From: a virus
Direction: 5' to 3' (one strand)
Virus record (IMG/VR): IMGVR_UViG_3300043436_003128
Coordinates: 1-24,402 of that record
DNA length: 24,402 nt
The notes below the pieces were generated by a model, which was not told the origin of the DNA, made no database searches, and saw only the letters and a program-made list of their open reading frames with translations. Shown piece after piece: positions 1,313 to 23,921 of this stretch (position 1 is the first letter of the stretch; every line of letters starts with the position of its first letter). Made by a program: the position numbers and the translations under genes.

Positions 1313-1317
1313 CGTAA

Positions 1318-1337
1318 CAAATTTAGTGTTATATTTG
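1318..1337. promoter_or_regulatory. Back-to-back -7 boxes of two divergent genes
   Basis: The 29-base gap between the divergent ATGs at 1312 (-) and 1342 (+) holds TAAATTTG on the - strand (1325 to 1318) and TATATTTG on the + strand (1330-1337), both exact TAnnTTTG matches. Both boxes lie within about 6 bases of their start codons, so the transcripts would be leaderless or nearly so unless other promoters are used. Confidence 0.5.
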
Positions 1338-1341
1338 TTAC

Positions 1342-1638
1342 ATGAGAAATTCATTAGCAGGTACTAAAAAAGGCAAGTCAGAGAGTGCCAAATACTTTCA
1401 GTCCAATCCAAAGGCGAAGGCTAAAAAAGACGCTTATAACAAAGAATATCACTCTACTCCCGAGAGACGTAAGTATCGTTCAGAACTGAACAAGGAGAAC
1501 CGCAAGGCTGGAACCTATGGGAAAATGTCTGAAATGGGAAAAGATAGAAGCCATACTAAGTCAGGAAAAATGGTTTTGGAGAATAGTTCGGCCAACAGAA
1601 AACGCAACGGTAAAAATGGGAAATCTAGCAAAAAATAA
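1342..1638 (+). CDS. Small basic phage protein, 98 aa
   Basis: The protein is very rich in Lys, Arg, Ser and Asn. It contains AKYFQSNPKAKAKKD, EYHSTPERRKYRSEL and a C-terminal SHTKSGKMVLENSSANRKRNG segment. Such Lys-rich proteins with an 'SHTKxGK...ENxSxNRxRN' tail are common in Bacteroidetes and marine phages, where their role is unknown; binding nucleic acid or packing inside the virion are possible. Its last 23 bases overlap the start of the HNH gene at 1616. It resembles in composition the lysine-rich block at 17.2-20.1 kb but is not obviously a paralog of those genes. Confidence 0.7.
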   Translation: MRNSLAGTKKGKSESAKYFQSNPKAKAKKDAYNKEYHSTPERRKYRSELNKENRKAGTYGKMSEMGKDRSHTKSGKMVLENSSANRKRNGKNGKSSKK

Positions 1639-12384: not shown

Positions 12385-12439
12385 TAGCAGAATGGATGGA
12401 CTCGAACCATCAGATGCGAACATCTCTCCAAGCATTCTA
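12385..12439 (-). ncRNA. tRNA-like top half (acceptor + T arm + variable-arm-like hairpin)
   Basis: Read on the - strand: TAGAATG pairs with CATTCTG as a 7-bp acceptor-like stem (first pair U-G); GATGG-TTCGAGT-CCATC is a perfect T arm with a canonical TTCGA loop, directly followed by the 3' acceptor strand; and AGATG-TTCG-CATCT is a hairpin just before the T arm, where class II tRNAs have a long variable arm. Only 21 bases separate the 5' acceptor strand from the T arm, so D and anticodon arms are missing. It is not a functional tRNA by standard rules; it may be a degraded tRNA, an attachment-site remnant or a true tRNA-like RNA. Confidence 0.5.
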
Positions 12440-13008
12440 GAATGTTTTAGTATAACAAGCAGAAAGGCATATAGTACATATGTGATTCCCTTCGTTCTCG
12501 CTGATGCGATTCAATTCAAGATGTCAAAGAACTTCGGCCTTTATACGCTTCTCCGTTTATGCGTCCCAACTTTACTATTTCATCCCCTCTATTAAGATTT
12601 TACTCCGTTCGTTTCAATTACTCTAGTACTCAAGGTTGTTGGTTACTCCTCTTACTATTCATATTAGGTTGAATAATGCTCTCTATAATTCACGCTATAG
12701 ATATTCCCATATGTATGCGCTTATAACAATTCAGTTGCGGAGCAAAACCAATCTTTCAATTTTCATAATTCCCGTTGGAATCGGATACAAAGATGAAAAT
12801 TATTTTCACCTAAAAATCACATAATTGCAACAAATTTCATCATTCTTGGAATCCTAACGTAATAGCCTGGAAATTAGCATTTTAACCCACAAAAAAACGT
12901 ATACATTTTGACTGTTTTTGTGTGTTTCAGAGGAAAATAGACTATAATAAAGCACCCGAAAATGATTTAGGATGCACCATAATTTCCTTGCAAATGGATT
13001 CGATTTGT

Positions 13009-13303
13009 ATGCGATTTTGAATTGCCTATTGAATTAGTGCTTGAACGCTGAATAGGTTTGCTACGAAACATTGTGGTTCGTTCGACATTAACCTTTATAG
13101 AGTTACGAACATAGTTACTAACAATGGATGCGGATGTATGCCTTACGAAATCCGTAGTGAATGTGCAATAGGTTTGCTGAATAGTTACGAACAAAGTTAT
13201 TCACATAGTTTATTGGGGCATTACTGCTGACCTTACGCGATTTGTGACGGCAATAGAGACGTTGTAATATGCTGACCATAGTAAACCATCACGATGCGAT
13301 TTT
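13009..13303. repeat. Mosaic of short imperfect repeats
   Basis: Repeated pieces include AGTTACGAACATAGTTA (13101-13117) against AGTTACGAACAAAGTTA (13183-13199), AATAGGTTTGCT (13051-13062 and 13167-13178), GCTGAATAG (13047-13055 and 13176-13184), ATGCGATTTT (13009-13018 and 13294-13303), CCTTACG and GCTGACC (twice each). Such scattered, same-direction copies are typical of iteron-like control regions. Confidence 0.65.
13197..13205 (+). promoter_or_regulatory. DnaA-box-like site
   Basis: TTATTCACA differs from the classic DnaA box TTATCCACA at one position and lies among the imperfect repeats. The genome encodes a DnaA domain IV-like protein at 23412-23921 that could bind here. One such site is expected by chance now and then, so this alone is weak. 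Confidence 0.35.
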
Positions 13304-13366
13304 CGTTGCTTATTGCCTAGCGTATGGAAGCGAGACGAGGAAGAGACGAGAAGGTTGAGAGCCGTA

Positions 13367-13381
13367 GCGAAACGGTTTCGC
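13367..13381. repeat. Palindrome in the GC-rich island
   Basis: GCGAAAC and GTTTCGC are perfect inverted repeats around a single central G. The arms of 7 bases could form an operator-type protein site; the single-base centre is too tight for a stable RNA hairpin. Confidence 0.5.
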
Positions 13382-13734
13382 CTGGGGGGTGGGTTCGGAA
13401 GACCTGATCTCCTGATCGGCCCGGTGGTGGGATCTTGGTTGGTAAACCCCCTTCCTCTAACATCTCGCCCCCTTTTTGTTTTGGATTGGGTATTTTGTTC
13501 CCCTGATCCCCTTTTTGTGACTATATAAAGATACGAAATCTATTCTAAAGATTATAATAATATGGGTCGAAATGCGGTTTGTCCATCGGTGAGTATCCTG
13601 ATTTTGCTGGGTTTGTAATTTTTGGAATGGGGGGGGTGGTGTCGCAAAATGCGTTTCTTGCATAATGCTGATCCTGTTTTGGGGACCAGGGTGAAAAAAA
13701 ATTTTGGCGGTAAAAAAATGAGAGGGCATAAAAA

Positions 13735-13752
13735 AACCCTATCTCTAGGGTT
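13735..13752 (-). terminator. Terminator after the 159-aa basic protein gene
   Basis: On the - strand AACCCTA-GAGA-TAGGGTT is a 7-bp stem with a GNRA loop followed directly by a run of T residues. The stop codon of the gene (13751-13753) is inside the stem. Confidence 0.8.
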
Positions 13753-14230
13753 ATTTCTTTTTTCTGCTTTGTTTGATTCTCTGCTTGTCGGCTTTGAACT
13801 GTTCGGACTGGGTGTAGAGCTTACCAGCCTTTTTATCCTTTCGATATGCCTCGTTAGCGTCCTTTTTAGCATAACCTTCCTTCCACTTCTTTCCGTATGC
13901 GAACTTCTCTGCTCTCTTGGCTGACTTGAAGCCGACTACTTCTCCTCTCTTTAGTGCCTCATCGTATGCTTGTTGAGGTTTGTCTTCGAGGTTGGTCCAC
14001 GTCTTACCTCCATTGTTAGGGAAAACGGTTGGGTGAACCTCGTATGGTCTCTTTTTGTTTCCTGTTTCTCCAGAGGAGAGGAGTACGGTTGAGGAGGGTC
14101 CCTCTGCATTTTTCATAGGAGTAACCCCTTTTCTCATGTCTCGGAGTGCCTTAACCTTGCGAGAGACGATGAGTCCATCCTTGGTGCGAGGTTTCTTTGG
14201 GTCTGGGTTGAAGTAGTCTTTTGCTTTCAT
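13751..14230 (-). CDS. Basic phage protein with conserved 'HPTVFPN' domain, 159 aa
   Basis: The N-terminal 40 residues are Lys/Arg-rich. From about 42 on, EGPSSTVLLSSG, then YEVHPTVFPN (63-72), WTNL and a helical AYDEALKRGEVVGFKSAKRA block match a short domain seen at the end of large phage proteins and alone in many phages ('Y-x-x-P-T-L-F-P-N...A-x-x-x-A-x-x-R-G-E-V...A-x-x-F-A'). Its role is unknown; in other phages it is often linked to virion or injected proteins. The C-terminus is strongly basic. The gene stands alone between two terminators, suggesting its own transcription. Confidence 0.7.
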   Translation of the reverse strand: MKAKDYFNPDPKKPRTKDGLIVSRKVKALRDMRKGVTPMKNAEGPSSTVLLSSGETGNKKRPYEVHPTVFPNNGGKTWTNLEDKPQQAYDEALKRGEVVGFKSAKRAEKFAYGKKWKEGYAKKDANEAYRKDKKAGKLYTQSEQFKADKQRIKQSRKKK

Positions 14231-14244
14231 GTTGTAAAAATATA

Positions 14245-14267
14245 AAAAAAAGCCTCTTGCGAGGCTT
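14245..14267 (-). terminator. Terminator between the 54-aa and 159-aa genes
   Basis: AAGCCTC-GCAA-GAGGCTT on the - strand is a 7-bp stem with a GNRA loop, followed by a run of eight or more T residues. It would end transcripts of the genes at 14290-14961. Confidence 0.85.
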
Positions 14268-14289
14268 ATTCATTGCGAAGTATTTTTTT

Positions 14290-14454
14290 TTATTTAGTCT
14301 TTTTTGAGAATGTTCCGTCAGGATTCTTTACAAAGGTAACACCGCTTCTTGTGTATGTTGTTTTGCTTACACTTGGTTTTGTGGTGTATGGGTTAGGTTT
14401 TTGAGTTGGCTTCTTGGGTGCTGCACTCATCTTTGCTGTTTTCTTAATGGCCAT
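14290..14454 (-). CDS. Small basic phage protein, 54 aa
   Basis: The frame reads MAIKKTAKMSAAPKKPTQKP, continues NPYTTKPSVSKTTYTRSG and ends FVKNPDGTFSKKTK. It is rich in Lys, Thr, Pro and Ser with almost no long hydrophobic residues, like the other small basic proteins of this phage. It lies 9 bases after the 166-aa basic gene and is followed by a GNRA-loop terminator. Virion-associated or nucleic-acid-binding roles are possible; not shown. Confidence 0.65.
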   Translation of the reverse strand: MAIKKTAKMSAAPKKPTQKPNPYTTKPSVSKTTYTRSGVTFVKNPDGTFSKKTK

Positions 14455-14463
14455 TTTTTTATA

Positions 14464-14961
14464 TTATTTTTTAGTTTTAGGGGCGAATCTTCCTGTAGCC
14501 TTAATTATTTCATTATTCTTTTTCTTGAGAACAGTTCCTCCTTTTTCTCTGTATACACTTTTTCCTTTACTAATTACGCCCGAAGCATCTGTTTTGTATT
14601 TAACGCGACTTCTTCCAACAAGTTTACCAGAAGCGTCATATTTCTTCTCTGTAAATCTCACTTTTGAACCCACGCCATTTTTACCTGTAGTAGTTCTTTT
14701 CTTTTTTACAGAAAAACCATCACTAACTGTTGGGACATTAGCTGTTGGCTTAACACTTCTTTCTCTAGTTACTGGCTTACCTAGAGCGTTTTTCTCTTTG
14801 TAGGTAGTTTCTTTTGAAAAACCTACTTTACGACCCTCTGTTGGAGAGCTTTGATAAGTCCTTTCGAGTTTAGAACTCATCTGAGCCTTATTAGCGTTTG
14901 CGACTCTATTGCTTCTTATTTTGGAGATGAGTCCTTGCCCCGGTTCTTTTCTAATTGCCAT
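14464..14961 (-). CDS. Lysine-rich phage protein, 165 aa
   Basis: From ATG at 14961 it reads MAIRKEPGQGLISKIRSNRV. The rest is rich in Lys, Ser, Thr, Gly and Val with repeated short strands (YDASGKLVGRSRVKYKTDAS; SKGKSVYREKGGTVLKKK), recalling the + strand basic proteins at 17.5-19.7 kb. The longer in-frame start at 15018 is rejected because it would overlap the promoter (14989-15019) upstream. Repeated beta-hairpin-like units suggest a fibrous or nucleic-acid-binding protein. Likely virion-associated; function unknown. Confidence 0.75.
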   Translation of the reverse strand: MAIRKEPGQGLISKIRSNRVANANKAQMSSKLERTYQSSPTEGRKVGFSKETTYKEKNALGKPVTRERSVKPTANVPTVSDGFSVKKKRTTTGKNGVGSKVRFTEKKYDASGKLVGRSRVKYKTDASGVISKGKSVYREKGGTVLKKKNNEIIKATGRFAPKTKK

Positions 14962-14988
14962 GGTTTTGTATTTATTATTAATAATACA

Positions 14989-15019
14989 CAAATATACAAA
15001 TCTTGCTTTACTAGGCAAA
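14989..15019 (-). promoter_or_regulatory. Bacteroidetes promoter of the lysine-rich gene
   Basis: On the - strand TTTG (15019-15016) is followed after 19 bases by TATATTTG (14996-14989), an exact -33/-7 match. The start codon at 14961 is 28 bases downstream. It is the clearest promoter in the window. Confidence 0.75.
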
Positions 15020-15129
15020 AAAAATCAGTTGGTTACATCTACTAACCATCTTGTTGGAATCGACTAAATGGTGCATGATGTTTTTGGAAAAATTCATGCA
15101 GTAACTCGGCTATATTCCGAATTAGCGTT

Positions 15130-15172
15130 GATTATTTTCCACTAAAGGCTGATTCTGGGGATTATTTTCCAC
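15130..15172 (+). repeat. Two GATTATTTTCCAC direct repeats
   Basis: Identical 13-base copies at 15130-15142 and 15160-15172, 30 bases apart. Each contains TTTTCCAC, close to a DnaA box (TTATCCACA or TTTTCCACA). Three helical turns of spacing would put two bound proteins on the same DNA face. Confidence 0.7.
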
Positions 15173-15217
15173 GATCAAACATTTGCCAGCAGATGTTGTC
15201 TACTGTCTATTGTTGGT

Positions 15218-15255
15218 TGTCCGCTTATATCGGACAGGTGTTATAAATAACATCT
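15218..15255. repeat. Two adjoining hairpins
   Basis: TGTCCG/CGGACA (15218-15236, loop of 7) is followed directly by AGGTGTTAT/ATAACATCT (15236-15255, 9 bp with one G-U, two-base loop). Neither is followed by a T-run on either strand. Confidence 0.55.
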
Positions 15256-15305
15256 AGCTCATTTAAATATGCAGAATTGGTCTATGGAGAGTAAATGACT
15301 ATTAA

Positions 15306-15359
15306 ACCATGCTTTTGTATGGATTCTAATACAAAAAAGCCTCCACGGCTATACATGGT
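15306..15359. ncRNA. Branched (three-way junction) fold
   Basis: An outer stem ACCATG/CATGGT (15306-15311 with 15354-15359) encloses two hairpins: CTTTTGTAT with ATACAAAA (loop GGATTCTA) and AGCC-TCCAC-GGCT (15338-15350). The nesting is perfect apart from one or two unpaired A residues. This is more than a simple terminator and suggests a structured RNA or a DNA cruciform. Expression is not shown. Confidence 0.45.
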
Positions 15360-15364
15360 CCTGA

Positions 15365-15387
15365 AAATCACTCATATAATGTGATTT
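15365..15387 (-). terminator. Terminator-like hairpin after the Cys-rich gene operon
   Basis: AAATCAC pairs with GTGATTT around a nine-base loop; on the - strand TTTTC follows. Together with the next hairpin it lies just after the stop of the 67-aa Cys-rich gene. Confidence 0.5.
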
Positions 15388-15425
15388 AGCTCGTAACATT
15401 TTTACCTATGTTTTTGTTACGAGTT
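15388..15425 (-). terminator. Long hairpin overlapping the stop of the Cys-rich gene
   Basis: AGCTCGTAACA pairs with TGTTACGAGTT in an 11-bp stem (one G-U) around a 16-base loop. The TAA stop at 15417-15419 is inside the stem. No T-run follows directly, so it may protect the RNA 3' end or work with the next hairpin. Confidence 0.5.
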
Positions 15426-15620
15426 CCCCTTGACAATCTCCTTGAGTTGGGAGAGGATGTCTGTCTGTGTCTTTCCCCAGAACATATCGCAGGTTCCGTC
15501 TGCCTTGATTGGCGGCTTTGCAAGATACGCCTGACGGTACTCATCAGCAGGTGCTGTAAATCGGTAGCATTTTTCTTTATGGGGACAAATTGTCCCCTCG
15601 CATTTACTTATGTCCGCCAT
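15417..15620 (-). CDS. Cys-rich conserved phage protein, 67 aa
   Basis: MADISKCEGTICPHKEKCYR begins a protein with Cys at 7, 12, 18 and near 44 (CDMFWG). The pattern 'KCEG..CP.KEKCYR(Y/F)TA...PP....CDMFWG' is a small family widespread in phages, with a likely Zn or Fe-S site from its four Cys. Its molecular role is unknown. The ATG is 2 bases after the stop of the 44-aa Cys-rich gene (TAA-CA-ATG), so they are probably co-translated. It is the last gene of the 15.4-16.8 kb operon. Confidence 0.8.
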   Translation of the reverse strand: MADISKCEGTICPHKEKCYRFTAPADEYRQAYLAKPPIKADGTCDMFWGKTQTDILSQLKEIVKGNS

Positions 15621-15622
15621 TG

Positions 15623-15757
15623 TTACCTCCGTTGTTGTTTAGTTTTTTCTTCAATTTCATAGTTATCGCCCTCATCACATTGTTCGCACATCTCCTTTTG
15701 CTTATTGGCACATGAGTCGAATCCAAATTTACATTCTAATTTAATTTTCTTACTCAT
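15623..15757 (-). CDS. Small Cys-rich protein, 44 aa
   Basis: The frame encodes MSKKIKLECKFGFDSCANKQ, then KEMCEQCDEGDNY and a Lys-rich end. Four Cys (C9, C16, C24, C27 by count) form a CxnC...CxxC set suited to one zinc ion. It is too short for most annotation cut-offs but fits exactly between its neighbours: one base after the stop of the 80-aa gene and two bases before the ATG of the next. Possibly a zinc-ribbon partner protein; function unknown. Confidence 0.65.
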   Translation of the reverse strand: MSKKIKLECKFGFDSCANKQKEMCEQCDEGDNYEIEEKTKQQRR

Positions 15758-15758
15758 T

Positions 15759-16001
15759 CTATTCTATTGTTAAGTTGCTGTCCTGTAGTTCCTGGCGAAT
15801 ATACTCTCTTATCTTATAGCACACATCCATTTCTTCTGAAGTGGCTTCTCCTGATCCTTCGAGGGCGTTTCCGTATTTATGTACGCTACGGAGTTTTTGG
15901 TCGAGTTCCCAGATGAACATTTTGTATTTCCATCCGTCTAATGCATTACGAAGATCATCTGCCTCTTCTACCCGGTCAAATTCTATTGTCACTTTGCTCA
16001 T
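15759..16001 (-). CDS. Conserved phage protein, 80 aa
   Basis: MSKVTIEFDRVEEADDLRNAL begins with a beta-strand and continues with helix-forming WKYKMFIWELDQKLRSVHKY and an acidic tail (EEMDVCYKIREYI). The pattern 'VTIEFDxxEExxDxxxALDGxKxKxxIWDLDQxLR' is a known small phage family of unknown function. It overlaps its upstream neighbour by 4 bases (ATGA type), part of a tight operon. Confidence 0.75.
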   Translation of the reverse strand: MSKVTIEFDRVEEADDLRNALDGWKYKMFIWELDQKLRSVHKYGNALEGSGEATSEEMDVCYKIREYIRQELQDSNLTIE

Positions 16002-16201
16002 AGCTTTTCAAGTTCTACTTTTACCTCTTGCCAATAGTAGAAAAATTCAACACCCGACATTCTTGTATTAATAATCTCATCTACTGCTATTAAAGCGCAA
16101 TGCTTCGCATCGTCTTTAGCCTCCTCATCGTAAAGAAGTCCTGCTCGTAGATAGATCCAATACTTGTCGACTAGACTCTTCGCTTTTTCCTTTGGTGTCA
16201 T
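15998..16201 (-). CDS. Small phage protein, 67 aa (tandem paralog 1)
   Basis: MTPKEKAKSLVDKYWIYL starts a small helical protein ending YYWQEVKVELEKL. It shares 'MTPK.KAK.LVD', a central 'A..CAL..VDEI' and 'YW..V..E..KL' with the gene directly upstream, so the two are tandem duplicates. Such 'KAKELVDKY...CALIAVDEII' proteins are very common in phages of Bacteroidetes, often in several copies; the function is unknown. It overlaps both neighbours by four bases. Confidence 0.75.
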   Translation of the reverse strand: MTPKEKAKSLVDKYWIYLRAGLLYDEEAKDDAKHCALIAVDEIINTRMSGVEFFYYWQEVKVELEKL

Positions 16202-16422
16202 AACTTCTTTATTTCTAACTCCACCTTCCTCCAGTAGATTCTGTGTGGAGCAGTTGTTTCATCGTATTGAAATTCTAGAACCTCCTTGACAATTTCGTCT
16301 ACTACTTTTAAAGCACATAGCTTTGCTGTAGGGAGGTATATTTGAGAGTAGTCGGATAGTTTAGGCGGCTTCAAATTCATGAAGCTATCGACTAGTTCTT
16401 TTGCCTTAACTTTCGGTGTCAT
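16198..16422 (-). CDS. Small phage protein, 74 aa (tandem paralog 2)
   Basis: MTPKVKAKELVDSFMNLKPP begins this version, with LCALKVVDEIVKEVLEF in the middle and YWRKVELEIKKL at the end. Compared with its paralog at 15998-16201 it has a longer, Pro-rich insert after residue 15. It follows the 42-aa gene after 5 bases. Function unknown; possibly a protein-protein adaptor, given the repeated helical core. Confidence 0.75.
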   Translation of the reverse strand: MTPKVKAKELVDSFMNLKPPKLSDYSQIYLPTAKLCALKVVDEIVKEVLEFQYDETTAPHRIYWRKVELEIKKL

Positions 16423-16427
16423 TCCTT

Positions 16428-16556
16428 TTATTTTTCCTTCTTATTCATTTGAGAGAGTACCCAAGTCAAGACCTCTAACTTTAACTCATCGGAGAGATCC
16501 TCGCTAAAGGTCTTGCGGAGCATTCGCTCATACACCAGCTGCTTCACTATCTTCAT
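16428..16556 (-). CDS. Small hypothetical protein, 42 aa
   Basis: The frame from ATG at 16556 encodes MKIVKQLVYERMLRKTFSED, then LSDELKLEVLTWVLSQMNKK. It is an amphipathic helical protein with no motif recognised. It overlaps the last 29 bases of the upstream gene in another frame and stops 5 bases before the next ATG. The regular Leu/Val spacing and fit between neighbours support it. Confidence 0.55.
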   Translation of the reverse strand: MKIVKQLVYERMLRKTFSEDLSDELKLEVLTWVLSQMNKKEK

Positions 16557-16800
16557 TGGATGCCCCTAATTGTAAAGCGTTTAGAAAAGCAACAGACTCT
16601 TGTTGGAACTCCGGATCATTTCTCATTGCGTTGAGAGCATCGTTTGCTACAGAAGTTAGATCTTTAGTTAATCCTTCAAAAGACTCGAGAATTTCTTCGT
16701 TGCTCAACTCCATGTTAAGCGCCAACAACTCGGTTAATAGTTTATGGCATGAGAGAGCAAACTCCTGTACTGTCTCGTTTGTTACTTTTAATCTTTGCAT
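16528..16800 (-). CDS. Hypothetical helical protein, 90 aa
   Basis: From ATG at 16800 it reads MQRLKVTNETVQEFALSCHK, continuing as an all-helical acidic protein (MELSNEEILESFEGLTKDL). No signal or membrane segment. A GTG at 16818 in the same frame is rejected because it lies on the promoter box. It is the first gene of the operon that runs to 15417. Function unknown. Confidence 0.65.
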   Translation of the reverse strand: MQRLKVTNETVQEFALSCHKLLTELLALNMELSNEEILESFEGLTKDLTSVANDALNAMRNDPEFQQESVAFLNALQLGASNEDSEAAGV

Positions 16801-16817
16801 TTTGTTTATTATTTTCA

Positions 16818-16825
16818 CAAATATA
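16818..16825 (-). promoter_or_regulatory. -7 box of the 16.8 kb operon
   Basis: TATATTTG on the - strand, in the context TTTGTATATTTGTG that is also found before the gene at 14961. The ATG at 16800 is 17 bases downstream. No clear TTTG is seen at the usual -33 distance. Confidence 0.55.
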
Positions 16826-16870
16826 CAAAAGTTGTTGGAGTAATGATTAGTAAGTTTTCAACAATACGGA

Positions 16871-17032
16871 TTATAGATTTGGAGGAAGTTTGTACTCCTC
16901 TCCACTTTCTTTCGCGGCTTTGTAGTCGTTGACAATGTCACATAACTTTATCTTCTTGTCTATCTCGGGACATCCAAGTTGGTGAGCGTTGTAGTAGCCA
17001 CAGACAGGGCATTTATATTTCGGCTTTTTCAT
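16871..17032 (-). CDS. Small zinc-ribbon-like protein, 53 aa
   Basis: MKKPKYKCPVCGYYNAHQLG starts with a CPVCG knuckle (C8, C11) and has further Cys at 21 and 31 (GCPEIDKKIKLCDI), which could complete a Zn site. The tail is Lys/Glu-rich. The ATG overlaps the TGA of the upstream 49-aa gene. Zinc-ribbon proteins of this size in phages often bind nucleic acid or polymerase, but no specific role can be read here. Confidence 0.65.
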   Translation of the reverse strand: MKKPKYKCPVCGYYNAHQLGCPEIDKKIKLCDIVNDYKAAKESGEEYKLPPNL

Positions 17033-17178
17033 GACCCACAGTATAAGCACCCTTCGTCATCGTCCTCGATAGAGTGTGCCTCGTTATTTATTCTAATAGC
17101 CTCCATTTCAATTTGCTCGTTAGTCCACTCGGGATGAAAGGCTTTAAGTTGAGATTTAAGAAAAAGTAGTTCGCTCAT
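17029..17178 (-). CDS. Small hypothetical protein, 49 aa
   Basis: It encodes MSELLFLKSQLKAFHPEWTN, then EQIEMEAIRINNEAHSI and an acidic end with CLYCG. The helical first part and the C-terminal CxxC are notable; the CxxC could pair with the zinc-ribbon partner encoded next. A TATATTTG box on the - strand (17199-17206) lies 20 bases upstream. Function unknown. Confidence 0.6.
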   Translation of the reverse strand: MSELLFLKSQLKAFHPEWTNEQIEMEAIRINNEAHSIEDDDEGCLYCGS

Positions 17179-17198
17179 GACTATAAATTTTGGTTATA

Positions 17199-17234
17199 CA
17201 AATATACGGAGAGAAACTTATTTACATATCTTTG
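17199..17234. promoter_or_regulatory. Divergent promoter region
   Basis: TATATTTG on the - strand (17206-17199) faces the genes ending at 16871, and TATCTTTG on the + strand (17227-17234) faces the basic-protein block starting at 17253. Both match TAnnTTTG, though neither has a clear TTTG at the usual distance. This is the switch point between the - and + strand blocks. Confidence 0.5.
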
Positions 17235-17252
17235 TTTAGCAAAAAATATAAT

Positions 17253-17390
17253 ATGGCAAAGGTTCAGTCAACTAGCACATTTAAGAAGAAACCGAAGGTC
17301 CGCAGACCTGGTGTAATCGCAAAGACAAAGTGTTCTTGCTCAAAGAACTCTAAAAACTATGTTAAATCATATAGAGGTCAAGGGCGATGA
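17253..17390 (+). CDS. Small conserved basic phage protein (KRPG-type), 45 aa
   Basis: MAKVQSTSTFKKKPKVRRPG is followed by AKTKCSCSKNSKNYVKSYRGQGR. The 'MAKVQSTSTFKKKPKVxRPGVxAKxK...SKNYxKxYRGQGR' pattern is a small conserved protein I recall from Bacteroidetes and marine phages, likely virion-linked. Here two Cys (CSC) replace the usual Ser/Thr/Lys positions. ATG 17253 is chosen because the upstream frame from 17190 crosses the promoter. Its stop overlaps the next ATG. Confidence 0.8.
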   Translation: MAKVQSTSTFKKKPKVRRPGVIAKTKCSCSKNSKNYVKSYRGQGR

Positions 17391-17563
17391 AAAAACAGAT
17401 GCTTAAAAGAAAGGATGGTAGCGTGTCTCCAAGAGGACTTTGGGATAATTTGAGAGCCAAGGCAGCTCAAAATAAAAAGACTGGCGCAAAACCAAAGGCT
17501 CCTACTGCCGCAATGGAAATGCAGAAAAAAATTATCAACTCTAAAACTAAAAAGAAAAAGTAA
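17387..17563 (+). CDS. Small basic phage protein (SPRGLWDN-type), 58 aa
   Basis: MKKQMLKRKDGSVSPRGLWD begins the protein, followed by NLRAKAAQNKKTGAKPKAPT and a Lys-rich helical tail. 'KRKDGS.SPRGLWDN.RA' with 'KKPT.EM...E' is a recurring small phage family near structural genes. It is too short for many annotation pipelines. The ATG overlaps the stop of the preceding gene (ATGA) and its stop overlaps the ATG of the next (TAATG), so the three are translationally coupled. Confidence 0.75.
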   Translation: MKKQMLKRKDGSVSPRGLWDNLRAKAAQNKKTGAKPKAPTAAMEMQKKIINSKTKKKK

Positions 17564-18186
17564 TGGCAACAAATACTGACAGAAAAAAGAAAGCTTCAAA
17601 TCCTAATGGAGACTACAGAGGTAGAAGAAACATTTTTGGACAAGTTAAAGATAAACAGACAAATATTACAACTGAAAGAAATGATAAAAGGGGTACAACT
17701 ACTACTCGAAAGGAAGTGGTTAAGACTCGATCTATTTCTCCAAAAAGAACTGTTGTTGTAAAAAGTGGAAGCACAACTGAAGCCCCTCTTGGATACAAAG
17801 GAATATTCAAATCAAAGGGTGATGTAAAGGCTGTGAAAACAAAAAACTTAGATAACTTTATAAAAAGAAAAGGTGGAAAATACACACCATCATCTAATCC
17901 TAACCAAAGAGTATTAGTAACTAAAAAAGATATAGAGGTTAAAAAAACAACAGATGCTTTCCGTACAAAGAAAAAAGAACTTGAAAAGGCAGCAAAAAAC
18001 AATAGTACAGTAATGGACCTAGAAAGAACTAATACCATGAAGGGTACAAAAATAGAAAGAAATCCTTTGAATAAAACAAGGATATATAAAGCAAAGCAGT
18101 TACCAAAAAGAGTTGCTGTTGCTGCTCAAAATGGGCTTATGGCTCTTGGAATAGGTAATGAATATAGAAAAGCGGCAAAAAAATAA
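17563..18186 (+). CDS. Lysine/arginine-rich phage protein, 207 aa
   Basis: Starts MATNTDRKKKASNPNGDYRG and is rich in Lys, Thr and Asn throughout, with RNIFGQVKDKQTN and a Lys-rich helical region (TDAFRTKKKELEKAAKNN). No known domain is recognised. High positive charge, low hydrophobicity and the location between conserved small virion-type proteins suggest a DNA-binding or internal virion protein, perhaps one injected with DNA. This is an inference. Confidence 0.75.
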   Translation: MATNTDRKKKASNPNGDYRGRRNIFGQVKDKQTNITTERNDKRGTTTTRKEVVKTRSISPKRTVVVKSGSTTEAPLGYKGIFKSKGDVKAVKTKNLDNFIKRKGGKYTPSSNPNQRVLVTKKDIEVKKTTDAFRTKKKELEKAAKNNSTVMDLERTNTMKGTKIERNPLNKTRIYKAKQLPKRVAVAAQNGLMALGIGNEYRKAAKK

Positions 18187-18191
18187 AGCTA

Positions 18192-18464
18192 ATGGCTAAG
18201 ACACCAGCATGGACTCGAAAGGAGGGTAAGGACCCAAAAGGTGGACTCAATGCAAAAGGAGTCGCTTCTTATAGAAAGGCTAATCCTGGATCAAAGTTGC
18301 AGACCGCTGTAACTACCAAACCATCTAAACTAAAACCAGGAAGTAAAGACGCGAAGAGAAGAAAAAGTTTTTGCGCGAGAATGTCAGGTATGCCGGGTCC
18401 AATGAAGGACGAAAAAGGCCGCCCAACAAGAAAGGCACTTTCGTTAAGAAAATGGAATTGTTAA
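18192..18464 (+). CDS. DUF6321-like phage protein, 90 aa
   Basis: The N-terminal part contains DPKGGLNAKGVASYRKANPG and the C-terminal part KSFCARMSGMPGP followed by ALSLRKWNC at the very end. This 'KGGLxxxGRxxY...RKSFCARMxGM...SLRKWxC' plan matches the small DUF6321-type domain seen in many marine and other tailed phages, usually near head or portal genes. Conserved Cys in FCARM and at the C-terminus could bind metal. Its function is unknown to me; a virion role is usual by context. Confidence 0.85.
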   Translation: MAKTPAWTRKEGKDPKGGLNAKGVASYRKANPGSKLQTAVTTKPSKLKPGSKDAKRRKSFCARMSGMPGPMKDEKGRPTRKALSLRKWNC

Positions 18465-18475
18465 TAAAAAAATAG

Positions 18476-18483
18476 TATATTTG
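18476..18483 (+). promoter_or_regulatory. -7 box for the 18501 gene
   Basis: TATATTTG, in the context GTATATTTGTGTA shared with other promoters of this genome, lies 17 bases before ATG 18501. A TTG at 18458-18460 is closer than the usual spacing. Confidence 0.5.
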
Positions 18484-18500
18484 TGTAAATATTTAAAGCG

Positions 18501-18875
18501 ATGATTATAGGTACAAAAGAATTAGAAGATACTCAGAATGTTGTAAGAATCCCAAATGGTGGGGGATACGAGGAATACAATTTTTACAAGTTGCAATACG
18601 TTAAAACTGAAATTGTTCAAGGAGTTACAGCGAGTATTCCTAATACAACACCAACTTTAAATCAAGTAAGTTTGGCTAATAAGGGATTGGACACAGATAC
18701 TGAAGCTTATTGTTCAGAATATTTCCCATATGACCCTGACTGGCAAAACAATGACAGTTTTATATGTTATGAATCCAATAGAGATATAATGAACGCGGCA
18801 GGAGCTAATGTAGGTCGCCTTCATTCTCAGGTTGATGTTTATAGAATTATCCAATCAACTAATAACGCATACTAA
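18501..18875 (+). CDS. Hypothetical, non-basic protein, 124 aa
   Basis: Unlike its neighbours this protein is not basic. It begins MIIGTKELEDTQNVVRIPNG, with YNFYKLQYVKTEIVQG, several Tyr and an Asn-rich C-terminus (YRIIQSTNNAY). The beta-rich, Tyr/Asn-rich composition resembles small virion decoration or fibre-linked proteins. It has its own -7 box, so it may be expressed separately in the + strand block. Family not recognised. Confidence 0.65.
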   Translation: MIIGTKELEDTQNVVRIPNGGGYEEYNFYKLQYVKTEIVQGVTASIPNTTPTLNQVSLANKGLDTDTEAYCSEYFPYDPDWQNNDSFICYESNRDIMNAAGANVGRLHSQVDVYRIIQSTNNAY

Positions 18876-18886
18876 AAATAAAAAAA

Positions 18887-19285
18887 ATGAAACAACCATT
18901 AGTAAAAACACGCAAGAACCTTTTAGGTCGTGATGTTAAAATTACTCGTTCAGGTAATGAGAAAACTCGTGAAGTCACTGGAAATCGCGTAGCAAAAACT
19001 ACAGTGTCTAAAAATTTAAAGACTGGAGGTAAGAAAATTACTTCAAGTAAAATGGTAATTTCTCCAAGAGAGCAGATGGTTGATGTTATCAACAAGACTA
19101 AATATACAGGTGCGGCAGGTAGAAAGCGTATGCTTGATGTAAATCCTGAGACAAGTAGAAAAAAGACTACTTCTAAAGCTTTTGGTGTAGACCCTAAGAA
19201 AGCAAAAGAAACTAAAAACAAACTTTCAGTTAGAGAGAGTGCGAAGAAAATGTACAAAGGAACTAACCAACCTAAGAGGTTTTAA
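18887..19285 (+). CDS. Basic virion-type protein, tandem paralog A, 132 aa
   Basis: MKQPLVKTRKNLLGRDVKIT begins the gene. Its key blocks (RKNLLGRDVKIT, TREVTGNRVAK, NKTKYTGAAGR, NPETSRKKTT and a final KMYKGTNQPKRF) recur in the next gene, showing a tandem duplication. It is Lys/Thr-rich with no Trp or long hydrophobic run. Short repeated beta-strands with basic loops suggest a structural or nucleic-acid-coating protein. Its role is unknown. It starts 11 bases after the previous gene. Confidence 0.75.
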   Translation: MKQPLVKTRKNLLGRDVKITRSGNEKTREVTGNRVAKTTVSKNLKTGGKKITSSKMVISPREQMVDVINKTKYTGAAGRKRMLDVNPETSRKKTTSKAFGVDPKKAKETKNKLSVRESAKKMYKGTNQPKRF

Positions 19286-19287
19286 TA

Positions 19288-19734
19288 ATGGCTAAAATTA
19301 TCACAAGAAAAAATTTATTAGGGCGTGATGTAAAGATTACAAAAACTCCAACCACTAAAACTCGTGAAGTTACAGGTGACTTTGTTGCCAAGAAAAAAGT
19401 CAAGACTAATTTAAAGGGTACAACTCAAATTAGAAACCCATTTACAGGTACTAAGCGTTTTGAAAAAGTGGATATTGGTAAAAGAGTTTCGACTAGTAAG
19501 ATAAAGGTGAATAGAAAAAATGATTCTATTGACGTTACCAATAAAACAAAGTATACTGGATCAGCAGGAAGAACTAAAAATTGGGATGATAATCCAAAAA
19601 CTAACAGAAAGAAAACTACTGTAAGAACTTACATGGAAGACCCTAATAATGTTAGTAGAATCAAAAAAAATGTTCCGTTAGAAGAAAAAGCTGCAAAGGC
19701 GTATAAGGGAAAAAATTTACCAAGAAGATATTAA
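19288..19734 (+). CDS. Basic virion-type protein, tandem paralog B, 148 aa
   Basis: The blocks TRKNLLGRDVKIT, TREVTGDFVAK, NKTKYTGSAGR, NPKTNRKKTT and AYKGKNLPRRY match paralog A in order. It carries a longer middle insert (about residues 50-68, around RNPFTGTKRFEKVDI). Only 2 bases separate the two genes, so they were formed by duplication and stay co-transcribed. After its stop, another frame continues open to about 19783 with a tail ending TGKTLYGNKKQ, which may be a decayed C-terminal extension. Confidence 0.75.
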   Translation: MAKIITRKNLLGRDVKITKTPTTKTREVTGDFVAKKKVKTNLKGTTQIRNPFTGTKRFEKVDIGKRVSTSKIKVNRKNDSIDVTNKTKYTGSAGRTKNWDDNPKTNRKKTTVRTYMEDPNNVSRIKKNVPLEEKAAKAYKGKNLPRRY

Positions 19735-19787
19735 TCCTATAGCTGCAACAGGAAAAACATTATACGGAAATAAAAAACAATAAAATT

Positions 19788-20126
19788 ATGGCTAAAATGT
19801 ACACCACTTCTAAAACTAACCCTATTACAGGAATGTCTACAGATAAAAACCCTCGTCAAGAAAAGAGACAGGCTCGAAGAGAAGAGAAAGCTTTAAATAA
19901 AAGTCTTAACGAGGGGATTAAAAAGCAAAAGGTTGACAAGTCTGTAAAAACCATTTCTTACAAAGGAGTTCCTGCCAATGAAACTCCCAAGCAAAAAGAT
20001 TGGAGAGATAGAGTTAAACCAGATAAGGGCGGTAAGAAAAATATGTCTACTAATACACCTAAAACAAAGAAAGGTATTAGTATAATCCCGAAGTCTTGTC
20101 GTGGCCCTAAGGAGTGGACTAGATAG
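19788..20126 (+). CDS. Basic phage protein, 112 aa
   Basis: MAKMYTTSKTNPITGMSTDK begins a Lys/Arg/Thr-rich protein; the middle (EKRQARREEKALNKSLNEG) is a charged helix, and the C-terminus GISIIPKSCRGPKEWTR ends the + strand block. No domain is recognised. The composition matches the other proteins of this block. Its stop overlaps the stop of the convergent gene at 20119 by 8 bases, and no terminator is visible between them. Confidence 0.7.
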   Translation: MAKMYTTSKTNPITGMSTDKNPRQEKRQARREEKALNKSLNEGIKKQKVDKSVKTISYKGVPANETPKQKDWRDRVKPDKGGKKNMSTNTPKTKKGISIIPKSCRGPKEWTR

Positions 20127-23411: not shown

Positions 23412-23921
23412 TTATTTCTCGATTTTAAGTTTAAAGTAAAGGTCTCTGTATGCTTGTCTAGGTTGTGGGTAGCCAAGCTCTTCCATTTTCTCAACAAAGT
23501 ATTGTACTAGCATTCTGTCCTTCCAAGAGGTTAGTATTGTATCCTCAAATGTTTTGATTCCGTAAAGGACCGTTGCGTGGTTTTTGTTTTTAAATTCGCT
23601 ACCAATCCCACCTAATGTTACAGGAAGTGTTTTATACATCATCCAAAAAACTAATTGTCTATAGACTACATTCTCTCTCTTTCTGTTCTCTTCACCTGTC
23701 GCATTGTATATTTTCATTGCCACATCTTTCATGAGGTCTATATAGTTTCTCATATTAGTGCCTATAGCAACATTGTGAATCACATGGCTAAATTTGTCAG
23801 CCTCTTCTTTTAGGTGAGGAACATAGAGAATTAAATCATGAATGAATCTCTCTTTACGATCATTTGGCACATACTCTAGGATGTCTCCAAAATGAATTTT
23901 CTTTTCTTCTTGAACTTCCAT
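23412..23921 (-). CDS. Stand-alone DnaA domain IV-like protein, 169 aa
   Basis: Residues about 84-130 (ENVVYRQLVFWMMYKTLPVT, then IGSEFKNKNHATVLYGIKTF) follow the DnaA C-terminal pattern 'A...A..L......LxxIGxxFGxRDHSTVLHAxxxI', including the signature NKNHATVLYGIK that reads the DnaA box. No ATPase domain precedes it; the N-terminal 75 residues are helical and acidic. DnaA domain IV alone could bind DnaA-box-like repeats as an origin-binding factor or regulator, or compete with host DnaA. The window has DnaA-box-like sites at 13197 and 15130-15172. Family membership is likely, role is inferred. Confidence 0.8.
   Translation of the reverse strand: MEVQEEKKIHFGDILEYVPNDRKERFIHDLILYVPHLKEEADKFSHVIHNVAIGTNMRNYIDLMKDVAMKIYNATGEENRKRENVVYRQLVFWMMYKTLPVTLGGIGSEFKNKNHATVLYGIKTFEDTILTSWKDRMLVQYFVEKMEELGYPQPRQAYRDLYFKLKIEK

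Follow-up and report, generated by a model that had tools for sequence, protein, structure and literature searches.

Temperate phages with operator/stoperator arrays, such as mycobacteriophage L5, carry many short protein-binding sites per genome, and datA of E. coli is a DNA titration locus. The locus described here, on a 24.4-kb IMG/VR phage contig (the window, i.e., the whole stretch of 24,402 nucleotides that was analysed), is a gene-free array of palindromes at approximately 15030-15423 that is flanked by two minus-strand genes. As in the L5-type arrays, many short candidate protein-binding sites lie in one phage genome, but here several palindrome classes form one ordered block and no phage repressor was identified. 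Like datA, the array is a non-coding block putatively able to bind a regulator without regulating a neighbouring gene; it differs in being phage-borne, in containing several different sites and in its would-be targets, host antitoxins, which it would titrate.

The promoters of AbiEi, an antitoxin of the type IV AbiE systems, and of its relative Rv2827c from M. tuberculosis contain inverted repeats to which the respective protein itself binds (PMC3985639, PMC7319586). Palindrome classes V, I* and XII in the arrays of related phages have arms, spacing and an A/T-rich spacer in common with the operators of this family (DUF6088, PF19570), whereas the phage array is non-coding and without AbiE genes, and the dyads of the window belong to other sequence classes. 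The antitoxin PrpA binds origin iterons and lowers plasmid copy number (PMC7848731). The array resembles iteron origins and the PrpA-bound plasmid origin in having direct repeats beside antitoxin-type sites, in single copy, but no initiator was identified for it and the skew evidence comes from one of two phage groups. The best reading of the stem-loops is as double-stranded DNA palindromes, candidate operators for dimeric DNA-binding proteins, rather than as RNA. On balance the array is probably a set of operator-type sites for dimeric repressors, themselves probably host-encoded and, for some of the sites in relatives, of the AbiEi type; the array might work as a decoy.

Layout of the array in the window

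The first-pass annotation had described five structures within 15218-15425, namely two adjoining hairpins, a branched fold, a 7-bp hairpin and an 11-bp hairpin overlapping a stop codon, and every one of them was found. The array does not end at 15218, however; the cluster at 15218-15423 is its left half, and palindromes and a twin 13-mer continue to approximately 15030. With about 400 bp the window carries a short form, the arrays of relatives being 0.4-1.5 kb long. The features are as follows (dyads and folds are given without a strand unless stated).

15417-15620, minus strand: 67-aa gene (phrog_20586, function not assigned), upstream of the array; relatives in 58 IMG/VR contigs
15390-15423: dyad class I, CTCGTAACA-N16-TGTTACGAG; perfect in L008, 8 of 9 pairs in L002
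15365-15387: dyad AAATCAC-N9-GTGATTT, a 7-bp hairpin at the class II position, where relatives have dyads with different arms
15306-15359: predicted branched fold (three-way junction), ACCATG..CATGGT around two hairpins; window-specific, not conserved
15236-15255: dyad class III, AGGTGTTATAAATAACATCT (AGGTGTTAT..ATAACATCT), within conserved block q158-210
15218-15236: dyad class IV, TGTCCGCTTATATCGGACA (TGTCCG..CGGACA), adjoining dyad class III
15160-15172, minus strand: direct repeat copy 1, GTGGAAAATAATC, 13 bp
15130-15142, minus strand: direct repeat copy 2, GTGGAAAATAATC, 13 bp
15103-15123: dyad class VIII, AACTCGG-N7-CCGAATT
15072-15100: dyad class IX, TGCATGA-N15-TCATGCA
15045-15072: dyad class X1, ACCAT..ATGGT
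15030-15048: dyad class X2, TGGTTA-N7-TAACCA
14989-15019, minus strand: Bacteroidota-type promoter TTTG-N19-TATATTTG of the 165-aa gene
14464-14961, minus strand: gene of a basic 165-aa protein, downstream of the array; start ATG 14961, not TTG 15018
1314-1341, plus strand: second class I dyad, GTAACAAAT-N10-ATTTGTTAC; conserved in relatives G008 and G009

The hairpin at 15390-15423 has nine perfect pairs (11 in the plus-strand fold), and the TAA stop (15419-15417) of the minus-strand 67-aa gene sits in an arm of this dyad. It is highly improbable that the 11-bp hairpin and those next to it simply end transcription of the upstream gene as intrinsic terminators: the first hairpin does overlap the stop codon, but no T run follows it, and a terminator scan found one site in the 1.8-kb region, the same number as in shuffled sequence. 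The view that terminators alone would be insufficient to explain the structures thus held.

The 13-bp direct repeats have a period of 30 bp in the window and 31 bp in relatives. The basic 165-aa protein downstream had no match in Pfam or PHROG. Small, very basic proteins of one family (KNLLGRDV motif) are encoded beside the array at 17563-20126 and 13751-14961, and their promoters are part of the modular region in relatives. A second long gene-poor stretch (12440-13750) is GC-rich near 13350 and carries conserved TTTGCGATACCACCCCCC-like sequence; relatives have it immediately after the array, and three genes intervene in the window. A tRNA-like remnant was noted at 12385-12450 (minus strand), with a T-arm-like GATGG-TTCGAGT-CCATC flanked by AGAATG..CATTCT; it received no ARAGORN or Rfam call and could be an att-type site or a degenerate tRNA.

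The second class I dyad overlaps a promoter (-7 box TATATTTG) and touches the ATG of gene 1342-1638. With a class I dyad also at the promoter of this phage gene, some of the array's sites may act in regulation by the phage itself. The -7 box is perfect on one strand, with TAAATTTG on the other. Gene 1342-1638 (plus strand) encodes a basic 98-aa protein (phrog_6437) common to both phage groups and, distantly, to cyanophages.

Conservation and carriers

A search of IMG/VR contigs with the twin 13-mer yielded 36 stretches, representing 29 distinct arrays, in which dyads were annotated by pattern. The order of palindromes is kept: I - II - III - IV - (I*) - VI or V - twin 13-mer - VIII - IX - X1 - X2 - promoter. 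Class I is the conserved leading element in most long arrays, and the class V or I* dyad directly before the repeat starts 34 bp upstream of the first 13-mer. The twin repeat occurs exactly once per record in all 20 records checked. Conserved order, single copy in these records and presence in 29 distinct phage arrays establish a real non-coding element.

Blocks of the window array recur in contigs with relatives of the 67-aa gene, at times split by genes. Genes inserted at several points of relatives' arrays encode a GIY-YIG-HTH endonuclease, endonuclease VII and small basic proteins. The GIY-YIG endonuclease, fused to an XRE-type helix-turn-helix, lies inside the array in L017 (3331-3939), L003, L023, L049 and L106; it occurs in both phage groups, with about 70% identity between them. 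As for a packaging signal, which the first-pass annotation had suggested, many contigs end near the array, at differing places. A blastn search of annotated phages with the array gave no match, and the twin 13-mer was absent from all bacterial and archaeal genome contigs searched. In isolated relatives (Elemovirus, NC_055854) the genome is compact, with no long non-coding stretch annotated.

Five carriers of 98-123 kb are crAss-like, any two of them having 71-86 proteins in common; the assignment is based on Crass_capsid (PF23898), terminase phrog_6681 and portal phrog_6547, shown directly for G002. The window's own group has genomes of approximately 60-68 kb (G008 67.7 kb, G009 58.3 kb). By BLASTP the window has 0-2 genes in common with each crAss-like record and G008 has 2-6, and both groups match the same terminase and portal PHROGs. 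The gene at 18192-18464 of the window has 95.6% identity in G001, and a 938-aa tail-region protein is 75% identical across the groups (G008 14667-17483, G005 64020-66836). Because of this gene and this protein, the two groups probably meet in the same hosts and swap DNA; the likeness of the tail-region protein suggests a common host and receptor. The array would be a modular element that two groups of Bacteroidota phages have passed to one another and that each genome carries once.

The first-pass annotation had also named an origin with cruciforms. In such a reading, a serious rival although we consider it rather unlikely, the array would be the phage replication origin, with the twin 13-mer and further TGGAAAAW copies as initiator iterons and the palindromes as accessory or cruciform elements. 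The array is single-copy and non-coding, with iteron-like repeats of 31-bp period; the other strand of the repeat holds TTTTCCAC, which is similar to a DnaA box, but the base adjoining TTTTCCAC is not conserved. Binding of origin iterons by an antitoxin is known from PrpA (PMC7848731). In 5/5 large crAss-like records both the minimum of cumulative GC skew and the point where gene direction switches are found within 0.7-2 kb of the array. No skew switch occurs at the array in G008 and G009, however, and in G008, whose gene order is continuous across the ends, the array lies about 15 kb from the skew minimum in a co-directional block. GC skew was not accepted as proof of an origin, given the misfit of G008 and given that gene direction, which the skew follows, explains it. 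The window's group encodes a DnaA domain IV protein (Bac_DnaA_C; 23412-23921, minus strand, in the window), found in 7 of 14 array records searched but in none of the five crAss-like carriers, so that a DnaA-like protein was rejected as an obligatory partner.

DNA palindromes or RNA

The first-pass annotation had named folding no better than that of shuffled sequence as a sign against its structures. Segment 15200-15440 folds better than 200 dinucleotide shuffles on both strands, with energies of -59.6 kcal/mol (plus) and -58.9 kcal/mol (minus), z of -3.57 and -3.76, and 0/200 shuffles as good. This stability and the strict compensation in the arms of class I and V dyads would fit an undescribed structured non-coding RNA of the phage, as had been proposed. 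Over the 29 arrays, however, the 220 bases before the twin repeat are equally stable on the two strands (mean z -2.40 vs -2.12, no strand bias), and class V dyads are found in both orientations, some palindromes being flipped in place. The three-way junction is predicted for the window sequence, but in 4/4 aligned relatives the outer stem and the larger of the inner hairpins are disrupted, and the other inner hairpin, of 4 bp, pairs fully in one of the four.

Compensatory changes, for which the annotation had proposed a test in related phages, are strict in class I and V arms. In class II (CAYAY-N4-RTRTG), by contrast, a variable position in one half changes independently of its counterpart in the other; at position 3/12 Watson-Crick pairs were counted 4 times, AC 5 and GT 5, A.C being as frequent as G.T. 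By eye, half-sites of classes VIII and X2 resemble class II in this independent variation, which is the pattern expected, in sequence terms, of the half-sites of a dimeric protein. The strictly symmetric arms of classes I, I* and V (GTAACAA/TTGTTAC, GTCACAA/TTGTGAC, GTCGCAA/TTGCGAC) fit homodimer operators of differing specificity as well as they fit hairpins, and compensation in classes I and V would be expected equally of such operators. Rfam 15 gave no match on the window at the gathering threshold; at E<=5 there were chance unrelated matches only, none within 15030-15423, and a tRNA scan of the region returned nothing. Because the strands fold equally, A.C and G.T mismatches are equally frequent, some palindromes are inverted in place and the three-way junction is confined to the window, an RNA is unsupported and we consider it very unlikely. 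For the crAss-like group, hairpin promoters of a virion RNA polymerase, as in N4-like phages, were also considered.

Likeness to operators of AbiEi-type antitoxins and the possible role of the array

Two palindrome classes of relatives, TGTCRCAA-N13-TTGYGACA and TGTCMAGT-N14-ACTKGACA, correspond to operators that immediately precede AbiEi-type antitoxin (DUF6088) genes of Bacteroidota. Across 257 billion bases from bacterial and archaeal genomes the class V consensus matched at only two sites, each in a member of the Bacteroidales: one in Geofilum rubicundum, 17 bp before a DUF6088/AbiEi antitoxin gene that is followed by an AbiEii toxin gene, the other about 150 bp before a YhcG/DUF1016 nuclease gene. 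Arm-pattern searches covered limited samples of 375 and 296 Bacteroidota genomes. The arms TGTCGCAA-N13-TTGCGACA and TGTCACAA-N13-TTGTGACA were found at ten distinct loci in the sampled genomes; six of the ten lie 17-106 bp upstream of a DUF6088 gene (rough chance ~1e-28). In the reverse test, 7/12 strong DUF6088 loci had a dyad of the same architecture upstream, with GTCCCAA, GTCACAA or GTCGCAA arms and a 13-nt spacer.

In a weaker DUF6088 subfamily (241 aa), 3/4 loci have an AbiEii toxin partner; its TGTCAAG or TGTCCAG dyads match class XII, found in 6/29 phage arrays (for example TGTCCAGTTTTTTGCGCAATAAACTTGACA in phage L088 and TGTCAAGTCAATTGCGCAATAAACTTGACA in cellular locus L189). A third AbiEi subfamily of Bacteroidota (MYVS.., ~205 aa; L226, L232, L235, L236) carries, 12-13 bp ahead of its start codon, a third conserved operator-type dyad, GCATACA-N12-TGTATGC.

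Class V, I* and XII dyads in seven relatives' records all lie within approximately 250 bp of the twin repeat; by strict pattern, a symmetric dyad of these classes is present in 13/29 arrays only. For these classes, then, arms and spacing match dyads directly upstream of cellular DUF6088 genes, and at the level of sequence there is good support, in relatives, for a link with the operators of host antitoxins.

Dyads of classes V, I* and XII are absent from the window array. Its classes I, III and IV showed no toxin-antitoxin link in 198-296 Bacteroidota genomes, and no such operator match was found for them; patterns of classes I, III, IV and VIII occurred in Bacteroidota genomes not at all or at control level, with no toxin-antitoxin context. 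Dyad I is similar to the matched classes in arms and spacing, yet has no cellular link. For the window array we infer the link to host antitoxin operators from its relatives, whose sites its own dyads would resemble in their working.

None of the 147 phage sequences examined encodes a homologue of AbiEi, DUF6088 or AbiEii, so the proteins binding the array would probably be the host's. Palindromes might instead be what remains of the promoters of cassettes (toxin-antitoxin, endonuclease and others) that were lost from an insertion hotspot. This we regard as unlikely: genes are indeed inserted at several points of relatives' arrays and the matching cellular dyads sit at antitoxin promoters, but arms are perfect and positions fixed across distant phages (V or I* 34 bp before the first 13-mer), which disfavours relics, and AbiE genes were found neither inside nor beside any of the arrays.

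Some of the palindromes of relatives are those which host bacteria use to control abortive-infection toxin-antitoxin genes, and this points to a site for regulation or a decoy and not to a non-coding RNA. In relatives, two or more palindrome classes would serve as operators for antitoxins of the AbiEi family, which repress their own type IV (AbiE) toxin-antitoxin operons in Bacteroidota. An array amplified with phage replication could bind and titrate host antitoxin or defence repressors; alternatively, it could place a phage control region under these repressors. Either step is put forward tentatively. Titrating an antitoxin might free the toxin and harm the phage, which speaks against a decoy, and no natural phage operator decoy for toxin-antitoxin regulators was found in the literature searched. 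It is doubtful, though conceivable, that Bacteroidota phages, crAss-like phages included, carry horizontally exchanged copies of host toxin-antitoxin and defence operators that titrate antitoxin-repressors as a DNA-based counter-defence. The candidate roles may overlap: a decoy that titrates host antitoxins, a site through which host regulators govern phage genes or replication, and relics of lost cassettes.

If the sites bind host antitoxins, DNA sites, instead of proteins or RNAs, would be the means by which these phages counter or exploit abortive infection, and an array would be a record of the toxin-antitoxin operators present in the hosts of a phage. Even without antitoxin binding, the array would be a conserved non-coding control region common to otherwise different phages, crAss-like phages included.
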